Source of the DNA: Achromobacter pulmonis
GTDB lineage: Bacteria; Pseudomonadota; Gammaproteobacteria; Burkholderiales; Burkholderiaceae_B
Length of the DNA stretch: 64,000 bases
Direction of reading: 5' to 3'
Assembly: GCF_902859765.1 (NCBI RefSeq)
Contig: NZ_CADIJV010000026.1
Coordinates: forward strand, 1 to 64,000
Within the stretch, counting starts at the first letter, position 1; the number at the start of each line of letters is the position of its first letter. Position numbers and translations under genes: made by a program. The notes beneath the pieces are model-generated. The model was not told the origin of the DNA. It worked only from the letters and a program-made list of their open reading frames with translations, and searched no databases. Positions 2,204 to 9,056 of the stretch are shown here, one piece after another.

Positions 2204-2707
2204 ATGAACCAAAGCAAAACCTTTTCCTTGTTGACGCCGCGTACCGGCCGATGGCTGGCCGTGGCGGCCGTCGTGACCTCGATGGCTGTCCTGGGCGGTT
2301 GTGCCAATCGCAGTGCCTCCAGCGGCGTGTATAGCTACGACCAGGCGCAACGCGAACAGATCGTCCGCACGGGTACCGTGACGGGCGTGCGTCCCATCGT
2401 CATCCAGAACGACAAGTCCAGCGGCGCCGGCCTGCTGGCCGGAGGGGCCTTGGGTGGCGTGGCAGGTAACGCCATCGGCGGCGGCACGGGCCGCACCATC
2501 GCCACGGTGGGCGGCGCCATTCTCGGTGCCCTGGCCGGCAATGCCGTGGAAAATCAGGTTGGCAAGAATTCCGGCTACGAAATCACGGTGCGGCTGGATA
2601 ACGGTGAAACCCGCGTCGTCGCGCAGGAAGCGGATGTGCCCATCAGCGTGGGCCAGCGTGTGCAGGTCATCAGCGGCGCCGGCCCGACCCGCGTTACGCC
2701 GATGTGA
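2204..2707 (+). CDS. glycine zipper 2TM outer-membrane lipoprotein (SlyB/Pcp-like)
   Basis: A 167-residue lipoprotein. The signal peptide ends in the lipobox LGGC (MAVLGGCANRS). The centre carries two glycine-zipper membrane helices (AGGALGGVAGNAIGG and VGGAILGALAGNAVE). A C-terminal beta segment (EITVRLDNGETRVVAQEADVPISVGQRVQVI) matches the SlyB/Pcp/OsmB group. The ATG at 2204 is preceded by GAGGAG at 2193-2198, which rules out the longer frame from 2165. A strong terminator follows. Proteins of this family sit in the outer membrane and support envelope integrity; the exact role here is unknown. Confidence 0.88.
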   Translation: MNQSKTFSLLTPRTGRWLAVAAVVTSMAVLGGCANRSASSGVYSYDQAQREQIVRTGTVTGVRPIVIQNDKSSGAGLLAGGALGGVAGNAIGGGTGRTIATVGGAILGALAGNAVENQVGKNSGYEITVRLDNGETRVVAQEADVPISVGQRVQVISGAGPTRVTPM

Positions 2708-3125
2708 CCCTGCCGTCTCCCTGGCTGCGGCCAGCACCGAAAAGCCCGCCTCGCGCGGGCTTTTTTTTTGCCCGCGTGCGGGGCTTGCCCCCCTGGGGCA
2801 AGACGCAGGGCGGGGTGGCCTGGCCTGGCCGGAATCTGTCGCTCGGCCGCAACGCGGCTCCGGGTGTTTACCCGCAAGCGTTACGTTTCCCAGCCTTTTA
2901 TGGCGATTTGGCGCGCAAGTTTCATGGCGATTCGACGTTTGCAATGCCATGATTGCACCCGTGCCCGGCGCCGCAGCGTGATTTTGATGTAACCAAGTGC
3001 ATCGTCTTGGTAATCTCTGGTGCCGTAGCCGTCAGTCGATTTTCAGCTGTTTTCCGTATACTCGCCGTCCTGAACTCGGGGCGGGGAGGATTTTGCCGAC
3101 GAGGCAATGTAACGTCGTACCATCT
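2708..3125 (+). promoter_or_regulatory. intergenic region with candidate dlt-operon promoter
   Basis: A 418-base gap with no convincing gene. After the terminator there is a second perfect hairpin at 2784-2802 (CTTGCCCC, 3-base loop, GGGGCAAG). A -10-like TATACT lies at 3057-3062, about 64 bases before the carrier-protein start; no good -35 is visible. The leader contains a small hairpin at 3093-3107 (TTGCC-GACGA-GGCAA) downstream of a GAGGA tract. I infer transcription of the dlt operon from here. Confidence 0.4.
2741..2769 (+). terminator. rho-independent terminator of the glycine-zipper lipoprotein gene
   Basis: GCCCGC and GCGGGC arms flank a 5-base loop and are followed by nine T residues, 34 bases after the stop codon. 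Confidence 0.9.
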
Positions 3126-3365
3126 ATGCACACCGAGCAAGAACTCCACACCAAGATCGGCGCGATCGTCGAGTCGATCGTCATGAAGAAAGTCACTCCC
3201 GATACGCAACTGATTGCCTCCGGCCTGGTCGATTCGCTCGCCGCGGTGGATATCACGCTGGCGGTCGAGGCGGAGTACGGCTGCAGCATCCCGGCTCCCG
3301 AGATCGCGGAGCACCTGCAGTCGGTACGCGCGCTCGCCGGCTATGTCGCTGCCAATCTTTCGTAA
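3126..3365 (+). CDS. dltC: D-alanyl carrier protein DltC-like (acyl carrier protein)
   Basis: A 79-residue carrier protein beginning MHTEQELHTKIG. The phosphopantetheine site is Ser37 in GLVDSLAAVD, matching the G-L-V/L-D-S pattern of DltC and other carriers. In the Dlt pathway the holo-carrier takes D-alanine from DltA and hands it to the membrane acyltransferase DltB. It is the first gene of a five-gene cluster and its end overlaps dltD by 23 bases, so the two are probably translationally coupled. No strong Shine-Dalgarno is visible. The DltC assignment relies on the neighbouring dltA, dltB and dltD genes, because the fold alone would fit any small ACP. Confidence 0.88.
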   Translation: MHTEQELHTKIGAIVESIVMKKVTPDTQLIASGLVDSLAAVDITLAVEAEYGCSIPAPEIAEHLQSVRALAGYVAANLS

Positions 3366-4521
3366 CCCCCGCCTGCTGTCCCATGTCGCGGCCGCGACCA
3401 CCGCGGTGGCGCTGGCCTATGGGGCATTTTGCGGCGCGGACGACCTGCTGTCGCGCGTCGTCCGCCCGGTTTCGACGGCGCCGGCGTCCAGCAGCAATTA
3501 TCTGCCGAATCTGGGGCCGGACTGGGGCACCCAGCACGTCAACCTCAACCGCCTGGGCAATGCGCTCAGCGACGGCACCCTGGTAGTGCTGGGTTCGTCC
3601 GAACTGTCCAGCCACGACCTGCGCTTTGTGCCCTATCGCTTCTTTCCCGAGGAGTTGAAGGTGCCGACGCTGGCCTATGGGCACGCGATGTTCCAGTCTT
3701 ATGGCATCGTCAGCGTGCTGGAATCGGTGGCGGACTCGCTGACCCCCAATACTCGCCTGGTGATCATGGTGTCGCCGGCCTGGTTCGCCTCCGGCGGCCA
3801 GCTGCCGCGCAGCGCGTTTGCCGAGCACGTCACCGGGCCGGTCTGGGACCGGCTGTGGGACAAGCCCAGCACGCGCGAGCAGATGCAGAACTGGATCAGC
3901 GACAACGCCAATTGGGGCCTGTTGTGGTTGATCGCCAACGGCCAGGTCGCCGAGCTCAAGGACAAGCTGTCGCTATGGTGGAACGCGCGCAAGGAACCCG
4001 CGCCCGATCGCCCGCGCAGCAAGCTGTCGGTGCCCGCGCACCGTTTCGTGACGTGGCCGTCGTCGGCGCGGCTCAACCCCGGCCAGTGGTCGCGGCTGAC
4101 GCACGAGGCGCGCGTGGTGGAACACCAGCTCGGCGGCAACAACCCCTACGACGTGCGCGACGACTACTACAAGCAATACCTGGCGCCGCTGTATTCCCCG
4201 GCCCGCAACGAGTTTGCCAACGTCGATCCGCTCACCCGCACCGAGCTGGGTGACTTGTCGCGTGTCATGGCCCTGCTGCAACGGCGCAAGGTCAAGGCCT
4301 ACTTCGTGATCCAGCCGTTCAATCCCAAGCTCATCCTGGACGTCGAGCGTTTCGACCCGGTGGTGGCCGCCATCACCGGCATGTGCCAACGCTATCAGAT
4401 GGGGTGCCTGGACTTGTACAGCATTCCCTTCGAGCCAGGCATGGTGCGCGACGACATGCACCTGGCCGAGCTCGGCTGGGCGCTGGCGGACCAAGGCATT
4501 GCGGAGTACTTTTCCCGATGA
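3343..4521 (+). CDS. dltD: D-alanyl transfer protein DltD-like
   Basis: A 392-residue protein with an N-terminal membrane anchor (about residues 13-30) and an extracytoplasmic SGNH-like domain. The nucleophile motif is GSSELSS at 84-90. The other catalytic residues are in DDMHLAELGW near the C-terminus (the D-x-x-H pair). DltD proteins complete D-alanine transfer to the final envelope acceptor outside the cytoplasmic membrane. The start at 3343 lies inside dltC and removes an implausible arginine-rich leader encoded from 3214. The stop overlaps the next start as ATGA. In this Gram-negative background the acceptor cannot be teichoic acid and is not evident from the sequence. Confidence 0.88.
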   Translation: MSLPIFRNPRLLSHVAAATTAVALAYGAFCGADDLLSRVVRPVSTAPASSSNYLPNLGPDWGTQHVNLNRLGNALSDGTLVVLGSSELSSHDLRFVPYRFFPEELKVPTLAYGHAMFQSYGIVSVLESVADSLTPNTRLVIMVSPAWFASGGQLPRSAFAEHVTGPVWDRLWDKPSTREQMQNWISDNANWGLLWLIANGQVAELKDKLSLWWNARKEPAPDRPRSKLSVPAHRFVTWPSSARLNPGQWSRLTHEARVVEHQLGGNNPYDVRDDYYKQYLAPLYSPARNEFANVDPLTRTELGDLSRVMALLQRRKVKAYFVIQPFNPKLILDVERFDPVVAAITGMCQRYQMGCLDLYSIPFEPGMVRDDMHLAELGWALADQGIAEYFSR

Positions 4522-4727
4522 AACTCTCTCACGAAGCCGACGCGGCGCAGGGCGACGCCGGCGAAGGCCGGATGGCCCGCAAGGCGGCCGCCCGGGCCTG
4601 GGGCCGTCGCTTTCTCTGGCATCTCTGCCTGTATGTCGGGGTGATCCTGGTGTTCGTGCTGCAGGCGCAGCCCACCACGGGCGGCGGCGGACCGATCAAG
4701 GTCGAATTCCAATACCAACAGTTCTGA
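4518..4727 (+). CDS. dltX: DltX-like single-pass miniprotein with C-terminal FxYxxF motif
   Basis: A 69-residue protein (or 51 residues if translated from the ATG at 4572) with one membrane helix at about residues 32-49 (RFLWHLCLYVGVILVFVLQA). A glycine-rich linker leads to the C-terminus KVEFQYQQF. The last six residues fit FxYxxF, the C-terminal signature of Gram-positive DltX, whose tyrosine is reported to carry D-alanine between DltB and later steps. The start overlaps the dltD stop as ATGA and dltB begins 7 bases after its stop. Such short genes are often missed. The DltX call rests on position, topology and the terminal motif rather than on overall similarity. Confidence 0.75.
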   Translation: MKLSHEADAAQGDAGEGRMARKAAARAWGRRFLWHLCLYVGVILVFVLQAQPTTGGGGPIKVEFQYQQF

Positions 4728-4734
4728 CCGCAGC

Positions 4735-5862
4735 ATGGAATTGTTCGCAAGCTTGAGTTTTTTCGGCGGCGCCCTGTGCGGTGGTCTGGGGCTGCTGGCC
4801 TACCGTTCGTTCGGCATGCCGCTGCGCATCGGCTATCGCCACATCATCGGCGTGATCTGCCTGGGCGTGTGGATGGCGGTGTTCTGGGCGCGCCCGTACC
4901 AGCCCATCGCGCTGCTGGCGATCTCGGGCGGGGCGTTGTGGGCCATGCGCCGCCGCTACATCCCGACCTGGCTGGCAGTCATCATCACCATGACGCCGCT
5001 GCTGCTGGTCAAGACCGGCGTATCGCACCTGGGCGCGATGCTGGGCCTGTCGTTTGCCACCTTCCGCGCCATCGACGTACTGCTGTTCGCGCCGCGCAAC
5101 GAGCGCCTGTCGCCGCTGGACTACTTCATCTATCTGTTCTTCCCGCTGACGCTGCTGGCCGGGCCGATGTATCGCTGGCGCAATTTCCAGGCCGACCTCA
5201 AGCGCGGCTACGAAGGCGTCAACCTGAACACCTGGCTGACCGGCCTGGAGTTGATCATGCTGGGCGTGATCCAGAAGTTCGGCCTGGCCGAGCTGATCTG
5301 GCGCTATGGTCTGGCAACGCTGGACGCGCATGACTACTCATTCAGCGGCGTGGCGCTCAACGCGTCGCTGTATAGCGCCTATCTGTTCTTCGATTTCGCC
5401 GGCTATTCCACCATGGCCATTGGTATCGGCATGCTGTTCGGCTTCTCGTTGCCGATCAATTTCCGCAACCCGCTGGCCACGCTCAATCCGCAGGACTTCT
5501 GGCGCCGCTGGCACATCAGCCTGTCCGAGTGGCTGCGCGATGTCGTGTTCATGCCGATCTACAAGGCCTTGAGCAAGAACGCATTCTTCTCGCGCCACCG
5601 CATGGCGGCGCAGAACATCGGTATTTTCGCCACGCTGCTGGCGATGGGCGTGTGGAACGGGCTGTCGCTGCACTACATCGTCAGCGGCCTGATGTTCGGC
5701 ACTTACTCCGTGGGCCACAACCTGCTGGTCAACGCCGCCCGGACCCGGCCCGCGCTGCAGGCCGTCCTGGCCCGGCCCACCATGCGTTTTCTCGGGCGTG
5801 TGCTCACGCTGATCCTGGCTGCGCTGGCGCTCTACGTGTTCAGCGGCCGCAGCCCCATCTGA
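4735..5862 (+). CDS. dltB: D-alanyl acyltransferase DltB-like (MBOAT family)
   Basis: A 375-residue polytopic membrane protein of the MBOAT family. The conserved block FWRRWHISLSEWLRDV contains His260, and the catalytic-type histidine is His313 in VWNGLSLHYIVSG. DltB takes D-alanine from carrier-bound thioester on the cytoplasmic side and passes it across the membrane. It lies between the DltX-like miniprotein and dltA, and the length is typical of the family. The MBOAT family also includes alginate O-acetyltransferase AlgI, but the flanking dltA, dltC and dltD genes make DltB the better name. Confidence 0.92.
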   Translation: MELFASLSFFGGALCGGLGLLAYRSFGMPLRIGYRHIIGVICLGVWMAVFWARPYQPIALLAISGGALWAMRRRYIPTWLAVIITMTPLLLVKTGVSHLGAMLGLSFATFRAIDVLLFAPRNERLSPLDYFIYLFFPLTLLAGPMYRWRNFQADLKRGYEGVNLNTWLTGLELIMLGVIQKFGLAELIWRYGLATLDAHDYSFSGVALNASLYSAYLFFDFAGYSTMAIGIGMLFGFSLPINFRNPLATLNPQDFWRRWHISLSEWLRDVVFMPIYKALSKNAFFSRHRMAAQNIGIFATLLAMGVWNGLSLHYIVSGLMFGTYSVGHNLLVNAARTRPALQAVLARPTMRFLGRVLTLILAALALYVFSGRSPI

Positions 5863-5878
5863 AGCCGGGAGTTTCGGC

Positions 5879-7324
5879 ATGCGTTTCGACCTGAAGACCT
5901 TCCAGTTCGTTGACTCCGTGCGCGCGCCCGACGCGCCGGCGGTGATTGGCGCCGACCGCAGTCTGAGCTGGGCGCAACTGCGCGCCGAGGCCGAGGCCTG
6001 GGCCGAGCAGGCGCGCCAGTATGGGGTGGCGCCGGACGTGCCGGTGGCCATTTATGGCCACAAACAGGCGGCATTCTTCGTTGCCATGGTCGGCGCGCTG
6101 TTGATTGGCGCACCATTCGTGCCGGTCGACACGATCTATCCGCCGCAACGGCTGGGCCGCATCGTCGAGATCGTGCGCGCCGCCGCCATCTACGATGCCG
6201 CCACCCAGGTATTCGAGCCGGGCGAGGGCGCCGAGTTGGCCGAGCGCGGCCTGGCCTACGTCATGTTCACCTCCGGCAGCACCGGCGATCCGAAGGGCGT
6301 GCAGATCGGCCGCGAAAGCGTGGGCCTGCTGGGCGACTGGATGCTGGGCAGTTTCGGTCTGGGCGAGGCGCCGGTGTTCATGAACCAGGCGCCGTTCAGC
6401 TTCGACCTGTCGATGTATGAGGTGTTCGCCACGCTGGCCGCCGGCGGCACCTGTGTGCTCAACGCGCGTGAGCAGATTGGCGCGGCCGCCACCTGGATGA
6501 ACCGCCTGGCGCAGCACGATGTGACTGTGTGGGTGTCGACGCCGTCATTCGCGCACCAGCAATTGGCCAACCGCGATTTCTCGCCGGCCACGCTGCCGAC
6601 CCTGCGTACCTTCCTGTTCTGCGGCGAGCCCCTGCCGGCGGCGCTGGCGAAAAAGCTGCGCCAGCGTTTCCCGGATGCGGTGATCCTGAACACCTATGGC
6701 CCCACCGAGGCCACCGTCGCCACCACCTGGATCGCTATCACCGATGCGGTCCTGGCGGCGCACGACCCGCTGCCGGTCGGCCACGCCAAGCCCGCATGCG
6801 AGCTGCGGATCCTGGACGGCGAGATCTGCATCATCGGTGATCACGTCATGCGCGGCTACCTCAATCGCCAGGACCTGAACGCGGCCAAGCTGTTCGTGGC
6901 CGAGGATGGCCGCCGCGGCTTTCGCACCGGCGACCTGGGGCAACTGGAGGCGGACGGGTTGCTGTTATGCCGCGGCCGCATGGACGACCAGATCAAGCTC
7001 AATGGCTATCGCATCGAGCTGGCGGAGATCGACGAGGCCTTGCATGGGTTGCCGGGGGTGCAGGGCGGGGCCTGCGCGGTATTGCGCCGGCCGGATGGCA
7101 CGGCGGTGCGCCTGATCGGCTTTGTCGCCGGACTGACGCAAGCGCAGGCCAACCAGCTGCTTGACCAGGATGCGCTATCGGGTTGGAAGGAACGGCTGGC
7201 CCGGCGTCTGCCGCCCTATATGGTGCCGTCCGAGCTGGTGTCGTGCGCGGCGTTGCCGATGTCGAACAACCATAAGATCGACCGCAAGAAACTGCTCGAC
7301 ATCTACGCCACGATCCCGGCGTGA
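5879..7324 (+). CDS. dltA: D-alanine--D-alanyl carrier protein ligase DltA-like
   Basis: A 481-residue adenylate-forming enzyme. The phosphate-binding loop is TSGSTGDPKG at 131-140, the A5-type motif is NTYGPTEATVA, and the RTGDLG and GRMDDQIKLNGYRIELAEID motifs follow. The C-terminal catalytic lysine is Lys466 in NHKID. The enzyme activates D-alanine with ATP and loads it onto the DltC phosphopantetheine thiol. The length is close to Gram-positive DltA. It is the last gene of the operon and ends just before a bidirectional terminator. Amino-acid specificity is inferred from the operon, not from a derived specificity code. Confidence 0.9.
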   Translation: MRFDLKTFQFVDSVRAPDAPAVIGADRSLSWAQLRAEAEAWAEQARQYGVAPDVPVAIYGHKQAAFFVAMVGALLIGAPFVPVDTIYPPQRLGRIVEIVRAAAIYDAATQVFEPGEGAELAERGLAYVMFTSGSTGDPKGVQIGRESVGLLGDWMLGSFGLGEAPVFMNQAPFSFDLSMYEVFATLAAGGTCVLNAREQIGAAATWMNRLAQHDVTVWVSTPSFAHQQLANRDFSPATLPTLRTFLFCGEPLPAALAKKLRQRFPDAVILNTYGPTEATVATTWIAITDAVLAAHDPLPVGHAKPACELRILDGEICIIGDHVMRGYLNRQDLNAAKLFVAEDGRRGFRTGDLGQLEADGLLLCRGRMDDQIKLNGYRIELAEIDEALHGLPGVQGGACAVLRRPDGTAVRLIGFVAGLTQAQANQLLDQDALSGWKERLARRLPPYMVPSELVSCAALPMSNNHKIDRKKLLDIYATIPA

Positions 7325-7356
7325 GGCGCCAGCGCGCGCGGCCAGCGGCGCGCCAG

Positions 7357-7395
7357 CAAAACGGCCCGCGCGGCTTGCCGGGCCGTTTTCGTTTT
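7357..7395. terminator. bidirectional terminator between dltA and the YggT gene
   Basis: ACGGCCCG at 7361-7368 pairs with CGGGCCGT at 7379-7386. The hairpin is flanked by AAAA upstream and TTTTCGTTTT downstream, so it can stop both convergent genes. Confidence 0.88.
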
Positions 7396-7955
7396 CAAAT
7401 GCCCATCAGGCCGTAGCTCAGGCGCGCCAGGACCATCAGCAGCACTTGGGCGATGATCAGCAGCACCAGCGGCGAGAAGTCGATCGAGCTGCGCGGCAGC
7501 AAGCGGCGGATGGGGTCCAGCATGGGCGCAGTCAGCGTCTGCAACAGCGGCATCATGGGCGCCATCGGGTTGACCCACGACAGCACCGCCTGGATCAGCG
7601 TCAGCCACACCACCAGGTTGAGCGCCCACTTGAGCGCCATCAGCAGCGCCGACAGCATGGCCGAGGGCAGCAGCACGGCGGGAATCAGCGCGCCGAGCGC
7701 GACCAGCCAGGACAGCACCATATAGACCAGCGCGGCCAGCCAGGTAGCGACCAGGCTGGTCCAGTCGATCTTGTTGCCGGCGGGGATGATCTTGCGCAGC
7801 GGCATCACCAGCCAATTCGTGGCCTGGTAGACGGCGCGGGCCAGCGGATTGAACGGATGCATCCGTATCGCGTGCATCCAGGCGCGCGCGATCAGGGCGG
7901 CGCCGAACAGCGTGAACGCAATTTCGAGCAGGAAGCGGAGAATTTCACCGAGCAT
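7395..7955 (-). CDS. YggT family membrane protein
   Basis: A 186-residue, very hydrophobic protein containing two YggT repeats. The first includes [23 protein letters not shown] and the second [35 protein letters not shown]. These proline-arginine motifs between helices are characteristic. Several membrane segments are evident, with a transporter-like inner-membrane location. The family's role is poorly defined; osmotic stress tolerance has been suggested for relatives. It converges on dltA and shares the bidirectional terminator. Confidence 0.88.
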
Positions 7956-8123: not shown

Positions 8124-8711
8124 TTACGGACGGCCACCCGTCGGGAACGGCCACGACGCGGCGGGATTCAGCGCGGTCTTCGCGCCCGGGGCGGCAGCCG
8201 TGGACGGCGGCGTGGCGGGCTTCTTCGGAGCGGCTTTCTTCGCGGCGGGCTTCTTGGCGGCGGCGGGCTTGGCTGCCGGCTTGGCAGCGGGCTTCTTGGC
8301 GGCCGGAGCCTTCTTGGCGACGACCTTCTTGGCTACCGCTTTCTTGGCGGGGGCCTTTTTGGCAACCGCTTTCTTGGCGACGGCCTTCTTGGCGACGGCT
8401 TTCTTGGCAACGGCCTTCTTGGCTACCGCTTTCTTGGCGACGACCTTCTTGGCAGCGGCCTTCTTGGCTACCGGCTTCTTGGCCGCGACTTTCTTGGCGA
8501 CGGCCTTCTTGGCTACCGCTTTCTTGGCGACCTTCTTGGCGGCCGGCTTCTTGGCGGCAACCTTCTTCACCGCCGGCTTCTTGGCGGCGACCTTCTTGAC
8601 TGCTACCTTCTTGACGGCAGCTTTCTTGGCCGGGGCGGCCTTCTTCGCTACTGCCTTCTTGGCGGCGGGCTTCTTCACCGCTTTCTTTACGGCTTTCTTG
8701 GCTGTTGCCAT
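8124..8711 (-). CDS. histone H1-like nucleoid protein (lysine/alanine repeats)
   Basis: A 195-residue, extremely basic protein built from short repeats such as KKAVAKK, KKVAAKK and KKPAAKK, like the C-terminal tail of eukaryotic H1 and the Bordetella protein BpH1. A non-repetitive tail ([20 protein letters not shown]) ends the chain. It probably binds and compacts DNA. The start is the ATG at 8711, with AAGGAG seven bases upstream; the in-frame ATG at 8717 sits almost on top of that site. Such repeats are prone to length change between strains. A terminator follows. Confidence 0.92.
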
Positions 8712-9056
8712 GGTCATGCTCCTTAGGTTCAGGGGTCCCAGAACTTAAACCCGTGCCCCGATCCGCCAACAAGGCGAACCGTGCCCGGGCTATTCATCGG
8801 CGCATGCCGCTGTCCTGTGCGAGCAACAGCTACTACGGTTTGCGCTAATGAATTCGGCACAGCCATTTGATATGGCCCCCGCTCCTTTGGCGCGAGCCAT
8901 TTCAAATGGCGCCGGTGGGCAGTCTGATCACAGACCGCCTACCGCTTGTTCTACGTGTTCGAAAACACCCTGACCTGGGAGATCGTCTTCGAGCCTGGCG
9001 CGAACGCAACGCTCTTTGGTAGAGCGTGCCCGCGCCTGGCCCGAAGGCGAACTACG
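8712..9056. other. 345-bp intergenic region between H1-like gene and nrdB
   Basis: No gene is supported. The region holds the upstream sequence of the H1-like gene, a pair of 15-bp palindromes (8862-8910), and a perfect 7-bp hairpin at 9009-9027 (ACGCTCT-5-base loop-AGAGCGT) beyond the nrdB stop. That hairpin lacks a T-run on the minus strand. Confidence 0.6.
8862..8910. repeat. pair of palindromic 15-mers
   Basis: GCCATTTGATATGGC (8862-8876) and GCCATTTCAAATGGC (8896-8910) differ at one pairing position as an inverted repeat. Each is itself palindromic; the second is perfect over 7+1+7 bases. Their centres are 34 bp apart. They look like paired operators or a cruciform-forming element. Confidence 0.7.

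Follow-up and report, generated by a model that had tools for sequence, protein, structure and literature searches.

A 69-codon open reading frame, here called X, lies between dltD and dltB in a five-gene operon (ACP-dltD-X-dltB-dltA) of the window, that is, the whole 64,000-nucleotide stretch of DNA analysed, and its product very probably acts as the acyl carrier in a Gram-negative D-alanylation (Dlt/Dra) system, holding the acyl group on Tyr66 between DltB and DltD. DltX has been reported to receive D-Ala from DltB on a Tyr of its C-terminal hexapeptide and to pass it on to DltD (PMC12148441), and a comparable sequence of events is proposed here. DltA should load D-Ala onto the acyl carrier protein (ACP), and DltB would pick it up at the cytoplasmic side and pass it to Tyr66 of X, whose C-terminal tail would lie in the periplasm and reach into the DltB channel; the tail would then swing to the Ser of DltD, from which D-Ala would be delivered to an envelope acceptor other than teichoic acid. 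Membrane topology, Tyr66 acylation, direction of transfer, payload, and acceptor are what we infer from the features described below. X may thus be the carrier so far missing from the Gram-negative Dlt/Dra pathway, itself linked to cationic peptide resistance.

The frame between dltD and dltB, first pointed out in a sequence-only reading of this DNA, was verified, and the single membrane helix attributed to it agrees with hydropathy, one hydrophobic segment spanning residues 32–50 (Kyte-Doolittle 2.15). Seven Lys/Arg residues precede this segment and one follows it, so that the C-terminus should be periplasmic. The length of 69 residues assumes the first ATG, an alternative in-frame ATG at residue 19 giving 51 residues. 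Among the 968 frames of the window (stop-to-stop, at least 30 residues, six frames), X is the only one ending in [FY]xYxxF. The ATG of X overlaps the dltD stop (ATGA), seven bases separate X from dltB, and a promoter scan of positions 2700–7500 returned no promoter. The features of the operon, which belongs to a genome of 5.67 Mb, are collected in the table.

Table. Features of the dlt operon in the window, with the basis of each assignment.
Feature	Position	Strand	Basis
Acyl carrier protein (ACP, DltC role)	3126..3365	+	PF00550 3.5e-9; GLVDSL phosphopantetheine site
DltD, SGNH-type transferase	3343..4521	+	PF04914 5.5e-58; alignment with Gram-positive DltD
X, DltX-like miniprotein, 69 aa	4518..4727	+	ORF, conservation, selection
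Predicted membrane helix of X, residues 32-50	4611..4667	+	hydropathy only
C-terminal hexapeptide of X, FQYQQF	4707..4724	+	sequence and conservation
Tyr66 of X, proposed relay residue	4713-4715	+	
DltB, MBOAT, 375 aa, without fused C-terminal motif	4735..5862	+	PF03062 7.2e-15; TIGR04091 5.8e-61, under its cut-off
DltB His260 in conserved RWH stretch	5512..5514	+	taken as S. thermophilus His289 column
DltB Asn308 in WNG	5656..5658	+	column of the WHG His, taken as S. thermophilus His336
DltB His313	5671..5673	+	kept in most Gram-negative DltBs
DltA, adenylating enzyme	5879..7324	+	PF00501 5.5e-63; TIGR01734 1.8e-113, under its cut-off

Conservation of X was followed in two bacterial families. 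For the first, the family to which the window belongs, a DltB profile (E ≤ 1e-40) was run against 268 genomes; the second, an enterobacterial-type family of the same class, comprised 295 searched genomes. DltB was present in 59 of the former, all of which carry, just upstream of dltB, an X ending in [FY]xYQQF; it was present in 26 of the latter, and a protein ending in FEYQ[QK]F stands just before dltB at every one of these loci, one of them broken. DltD (E ≤ 1e-8) was found in exactly those 26 of the 295 genomes. Persistence of the FxYxxF-type terminus in orthologues, set beforehand as a test, was therefore borne out at 59/59 and 26/26 dltB loci, each ending being in frame with an ATG, and the X frame is not broken in relatives bearing dltB and dltD. 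The sole doubtful case is the broken locus (L141), which comes from a genome 49% complete, has stops in dltB and dltD and an X tail in frame with dltD-like sequence, and was left out of the selection test. Sampling was limited to one phylum, from which 398 genomes were drawn; six of these have DltB at E ≤ 1e-40, all within the two families.

The last six codons of X are under strong purifying selection, with pN 0.024 and pS 0.729 in the first family (58 distinct sequences) and 0.022 and 0.951 in the second (24 sequences); over 40 codons the corresponding pN/pS values are 0.078/0.434 and 0.132/0.577. The Tyr and the last Phe of the motif do not vary in any of these 58 and 24 sequences. The exact fit to FxYxxF noticed earlier holds for X itself, but not without exception in its family, the first position being Tyr in six of the 58 first-family sequences and Phe otherwise. 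Parts of the helix are conserved as well; the N-terminal part varies freely. With the start taken at the nearest ATG giving at least 36 residues, X has 37–44 residues in 20 of the 59 first-family genomes and 50–75 in 39; in the second family, 39–40 residues from the nearest ATG were counted in 25 of 26, the remaining one being L141. Positions 4518–4601 encode a 28-residue N-terminal extension that is variable among Achromobacter species and missing from the other genera aligned.

The MBOAT protein encoded next to X lacks the motif that X carries. Elsewhere among MBOAT-SGNH systems, the MBOAT itself carries the hexapeptide as a fusion (PMC12148441), and indeed 69 of 70 distant MBOATs from many phyla were found to end in [FY]xYxxF themselves (68 in FxYxxF, one in YxYxxF; the single protein without a fused motif is L048), whereas the window DltB ends in YVFSGRSPI. 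In nine related genomes, the motif is missing from all nine DltBs and present in all seven other MBOATs; the genome of the window is among the nine, with its second, fused-motif MBOAT on contig C29. This distribution suggests that X supplies the motif missing from DltB. In a DltB tree, rooted for drawing only, a 100/99 branch separates 20 Gram-negative and 5 Gram-positive DltBs from 22 of the 70 distant MBOATs, which stand for the fused class. A wider DltB profile matched in 36 of 312 genomes of the class, scoring 586 bits for the window DltB and at most 182 bits for all other matches; nine loci inspected among the latter all have WHG and a fused motif. The window DltB passes the cut-off of PF03062 (MBOAT; 55.5 vs. 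27 bits) and does not reach that of TIGR04091 (DltB equivalog; 206.8 vs. 375 bits). Its solved structural relatives are 6bug and 8jem.

A further peculiarity of this DltB concerns the catalytic column of MBOAT proteins. His336 of Streptococcus thermophilus DltB has been termed invariant and His289 conserved (PMC11035591), and DltB, PatA, and other MBOATs are reported to need a His at this column (PMC12148441). When this numbering was matched to the alignment through the WHG and RWH stretches, not through a structure, the window DltB aligned without gaps there, with Asn308 and His260 at the two columns. Asn occupies the WHG column in all 58 first-family DltBs that have a residue there (a 59th, L192, has none) and in 27 of 28 rows of the second family, which come from 26 genomes and two plasmids; the broken L141 is the one exception. 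His is found in 5/5 Gram-positive DltBs and in 67 of the 68 other MBOATs with a residue at this position, L094 and L110, which have none, having been dropped from the 70; the single exception (L080) looks misaligned or frame-shifted. His260 is present in every row having the stretch. The sequence-only reading had placed the channel site at DltB His313, which is not supported by the alignment: the catalytic column is that of Asn308, and His313 stands five residues further on. His313 occurs in 58/58 first-family and 25/28 second-family rows and, with Asn in L116 and L133, is not strictly kept. With the usual His replaced by Asn308, the work of the first step would fall to His260, and perhaps to His313. 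A DltB devoid of the required His may thus differ in its chemistry. The titles and abstract openings among the literature matches listed contain no description of this change, and a clade of MBOATs with Asn at an "invariant" residue makes the catalytic mechanism testable by comparison.

The partner enzymes are in keeping with a Dlt-type pathway. The window DltD matches PF04914 and has the Ser/Asp/His residues, with GSSE at residues 84–87 and D..H at 370/373; both are shared with three Gram-positive DltDs and with the second DltD described below (DltD2), though DltD2 and the others differ in the surrounding residues. The DltD of a Klebsiella electrica plasmid operon has GASE and D..H. DltA of the window is 34–36% identical to Gram-positive DltA, and its stretch FLFCGE recurs in two of three Gram-positive DltAs, the third having FVFCGE. 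The payload is read from this DltA similarity only, and FIFIGE at the same stretch in the Klebsiella plasmid counts against a D-Ala reading. The window ACP is 38% identical to that of the plasmid operon. The suggestion of a DltX-like relay, made in the sequence-only reading, thus fits the company of dltB and dltD in two families, the unvarying Tyr and Phe, the motif-less DltB, and the DltD Ser/Asp/His residues; that X is an essential part of the system, as also suggested there, we infer from co-occurrence.

Two other readings of X itself have to be weighed. That the frame is a translational coupler or chance frame devoid of protein function might be supposed from its shortness, its overlap with the dltD stop, and its failure to match any family model; with pN far under pS, an ending conserved in two families, and dltD, X, and dltB staying together although the ACP gene moves—it is first in the window operon and last in the Klebsiella plasmid operon, with the dltD-X-dltB block unbroken in both—this reading is scarcely credible. 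A more substantial alternative is that X merely tethers DltB and DltD or stabilises DltB, D-Ala travelling by another route and the Tyr never being acylated. Conservation of parts of the helix would suit such a scaffold, and a regulatory role for DltX is still discussed (PMC11035591). A scaffold would not, however, readily account for a Tyr and a last Phe that do not vary, nor for the report that the same motif, fused to PatA, is acetylated on its Tyr, the Tyr residues of both DltX and PatA being reported acyl carriers (PMC12148441). We therefore consider a purely structural role improbable and favor an acyl carrier.

As to its relation to known proteins, X resembles DltX (PF12459) in being small, with one predicted helix and a C-terminal FxYxxF, and in its association with dltA, B, C, and D, but differs in having no detectable sequence similarity to it. 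The tails are FQYQQF, YEYQQF, or FEYQ[QK]F in X and FIYNEF in the three Gram-positive DltXs examined; furthermore, X lies between dltD and dltB, whereas the DltX gene comes first, and the partner DltB of X has Asn at the catalytic His column, unlike that of DltX. At E ≤ 10, X matched nothing in Pfam and NCBIfam, and 14 relatives of X gave chance-level matches only (PsbL, YqzM). PF12459 did not match X or the 14 relatives at E ≤ 10, a threshold at which HMMER filters drop most weak matches, or any protein of the genome at E ≤ 0.001. It does match three Gram-positive DltXs used as controls, at 1.2e-15 or better. Profile-profile comparison of X with DltX gave a probability of 2%, weak as a negative since the profiles hold 15 and 3 short sequences. 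A search of solved structures returned one chance-level match each for X and its profile, and Gram-positive DltX did no better. The gene had been described as easily unannotated; in keeping with this, besides escaping the family models, the enterobacterial X appears as a "hypothetical protein" (WP_255423173.1) in two RefSeq plasmid records. On present evidence X appears to work like DltX while failing the DltX sequence test, and should be named DltX-like.

The PatA/PatB-type acetylation systems likewise join an MBOAT and an SGNH protein by an acyl-Tyr motif (FxYxxF), but their motif is part of the MBOAT polypeptide, and neither a microprotein nor a carrier protein is involved (PMC12148441). 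According to the same source, MBOAT/SGNH pathways other than Dlt have no DltX-like microprotein, a statement with which X, belonging to a Dlt-type pathway, is not in conflict. The Bordetella pertussis dra and the Dickeya and Pectobacterium dlt genes constitute a gene set of the same Gram-negative type as that of the window, and both these genes and their link to cationic peptide resistance are already known (PMC9858536, PMC9410548, PMC3544676). No DltX-like protein is named in the available portions of these accounts ("dltx" occurs 0 times in PMC3544676). The B. pertussis locus is cited as BP2987-BP2991, i.e., five tags (PMC9858536), so that a gene there may already be annotated. Neither a Gram-negative DltX nor a shared-portal arrangement was found among the literature matches listed, which covered few subscription papers and are no proof of absence. 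With X, free-standing carriers would comprise, besides DltX, a second sequence family that has gone unrecognised.

The first search with X also gave a weaker second match (X2) in four Achromobacter relatives, lying behind DltD2, another DltD, which shares about 40% identity with that of the operon. A DltD2 profile run over the 268 family genomes detected this protein in 42 (loci L117–L120 and L193–L230): within the window's genus it occurs in 38 of 43 genomes with dltB, and within a genus taken to hold B. hinzii in four of eight; the genome of the window has no such pair. All 42 are among the 59 genomes with a dlt operon, from which the pair lies apart, and no match to DltB, DltA, or ACP (E ≤ 1e-5) was obtained within a few kilobases around any of the 42 loci. 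The Fisher test in this analysis (p about 1e-35) ignores relatedness and is not readable as a probability. X2, ending in FQY[SQ][KQ]F, follows DltD2 at every locus, retains the helix and tail features of X, and is under purifying selection (38 sequences; pN 0.049, pS 0.437 over 40 codons), less markedly so than X in the last six codons (pN 0.044, pS 0.580). GSSE and D..H lie in one open frame in 41 of 42 DltD2s, L230 having a stop, and two DltD2 proteins match PF04914. Ten DltD2s in a tree form one clade (98/98) spanning both genera; a grouping of DltD2 with enterobacterial DltD (91/81) was set aside as possible long-branch attraction. At L118, the neighbors of the pair, a molybdopterin-domain gene on one side and a phosphate permease on the other, are uninformative on the acceptor.

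The simplest reading is that the DltB of the operon may also load X2. It draws on the complete genome G799, where the pair occurs and DltB is the only MBOAT match (E ≤ 0.001); a fused-motif second MBOAT is found in seven of nine genomes checked, including five of six having the pair, so that the shared-DltB reading rests on G799. It is accordingly a tentative though quite plausible proposal that, in Achromobacter and part of Bordetella, X and X2 are both loaded by a single DltB without the canonical His, each carrier being bound to its own DltD, so that D-Ala goes to two different envelope acceptors. For the orphan pair only, X2 could instead be acylated by a donor other than the DltB of the operon (an acyltransferase-3 protein or a fused-motif MBOAT), or DltD2-X2 could be an esterase, as the distance from dltB and the frequency of fused-motif MBOATs would allow; given that all 42 pairs occur in dlt-operon genomes, that DltB is the one MBOAT match of G799, and that X2 retains the helix and tail features of X, this seems less likely. 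The orphan pairs suggest that carrier and transferase form a duplicable module with a shared portal. If a single DltB does load both, one membrane portal with two carriers would amount to a plug-in, multi-output acyl relay.

Some further observations were made on these loci and their surroundings. In genome G852, the DltB match begins only at residue 44 (L191), and X is intact with one Gly-to-Trp change ahead of the tail; with this partial DltB and the stop in dltD2 (L230), the system looks to be decaying. Two plasmids (L142 and L143; NZ_CP041250.1 and NZ_CP071862.1) carry an enterobacterial dltD-X-dltB-dltA-ACP operon flanked on both sides by IS elements, and this operon may therefore be mobile. 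The second-family X of L135 is identical in protein to the X of Enterobacteriaceae plasmids. A plasmid DNA search with the whole operon returned 85 records, none of which covers 80% of the query; the 20 matches listed are headed by three enterobacterial dlt operons, and the remainder are short stretches in the dltA part, many under NRPS genes. Elsewhere in the window, positions 8124–8717 (minus strand) encode an Ala/Lys-rich repetitive protein with KKAVAKK repeats, which presumably resembles histone-H1-type bacterial proteins.
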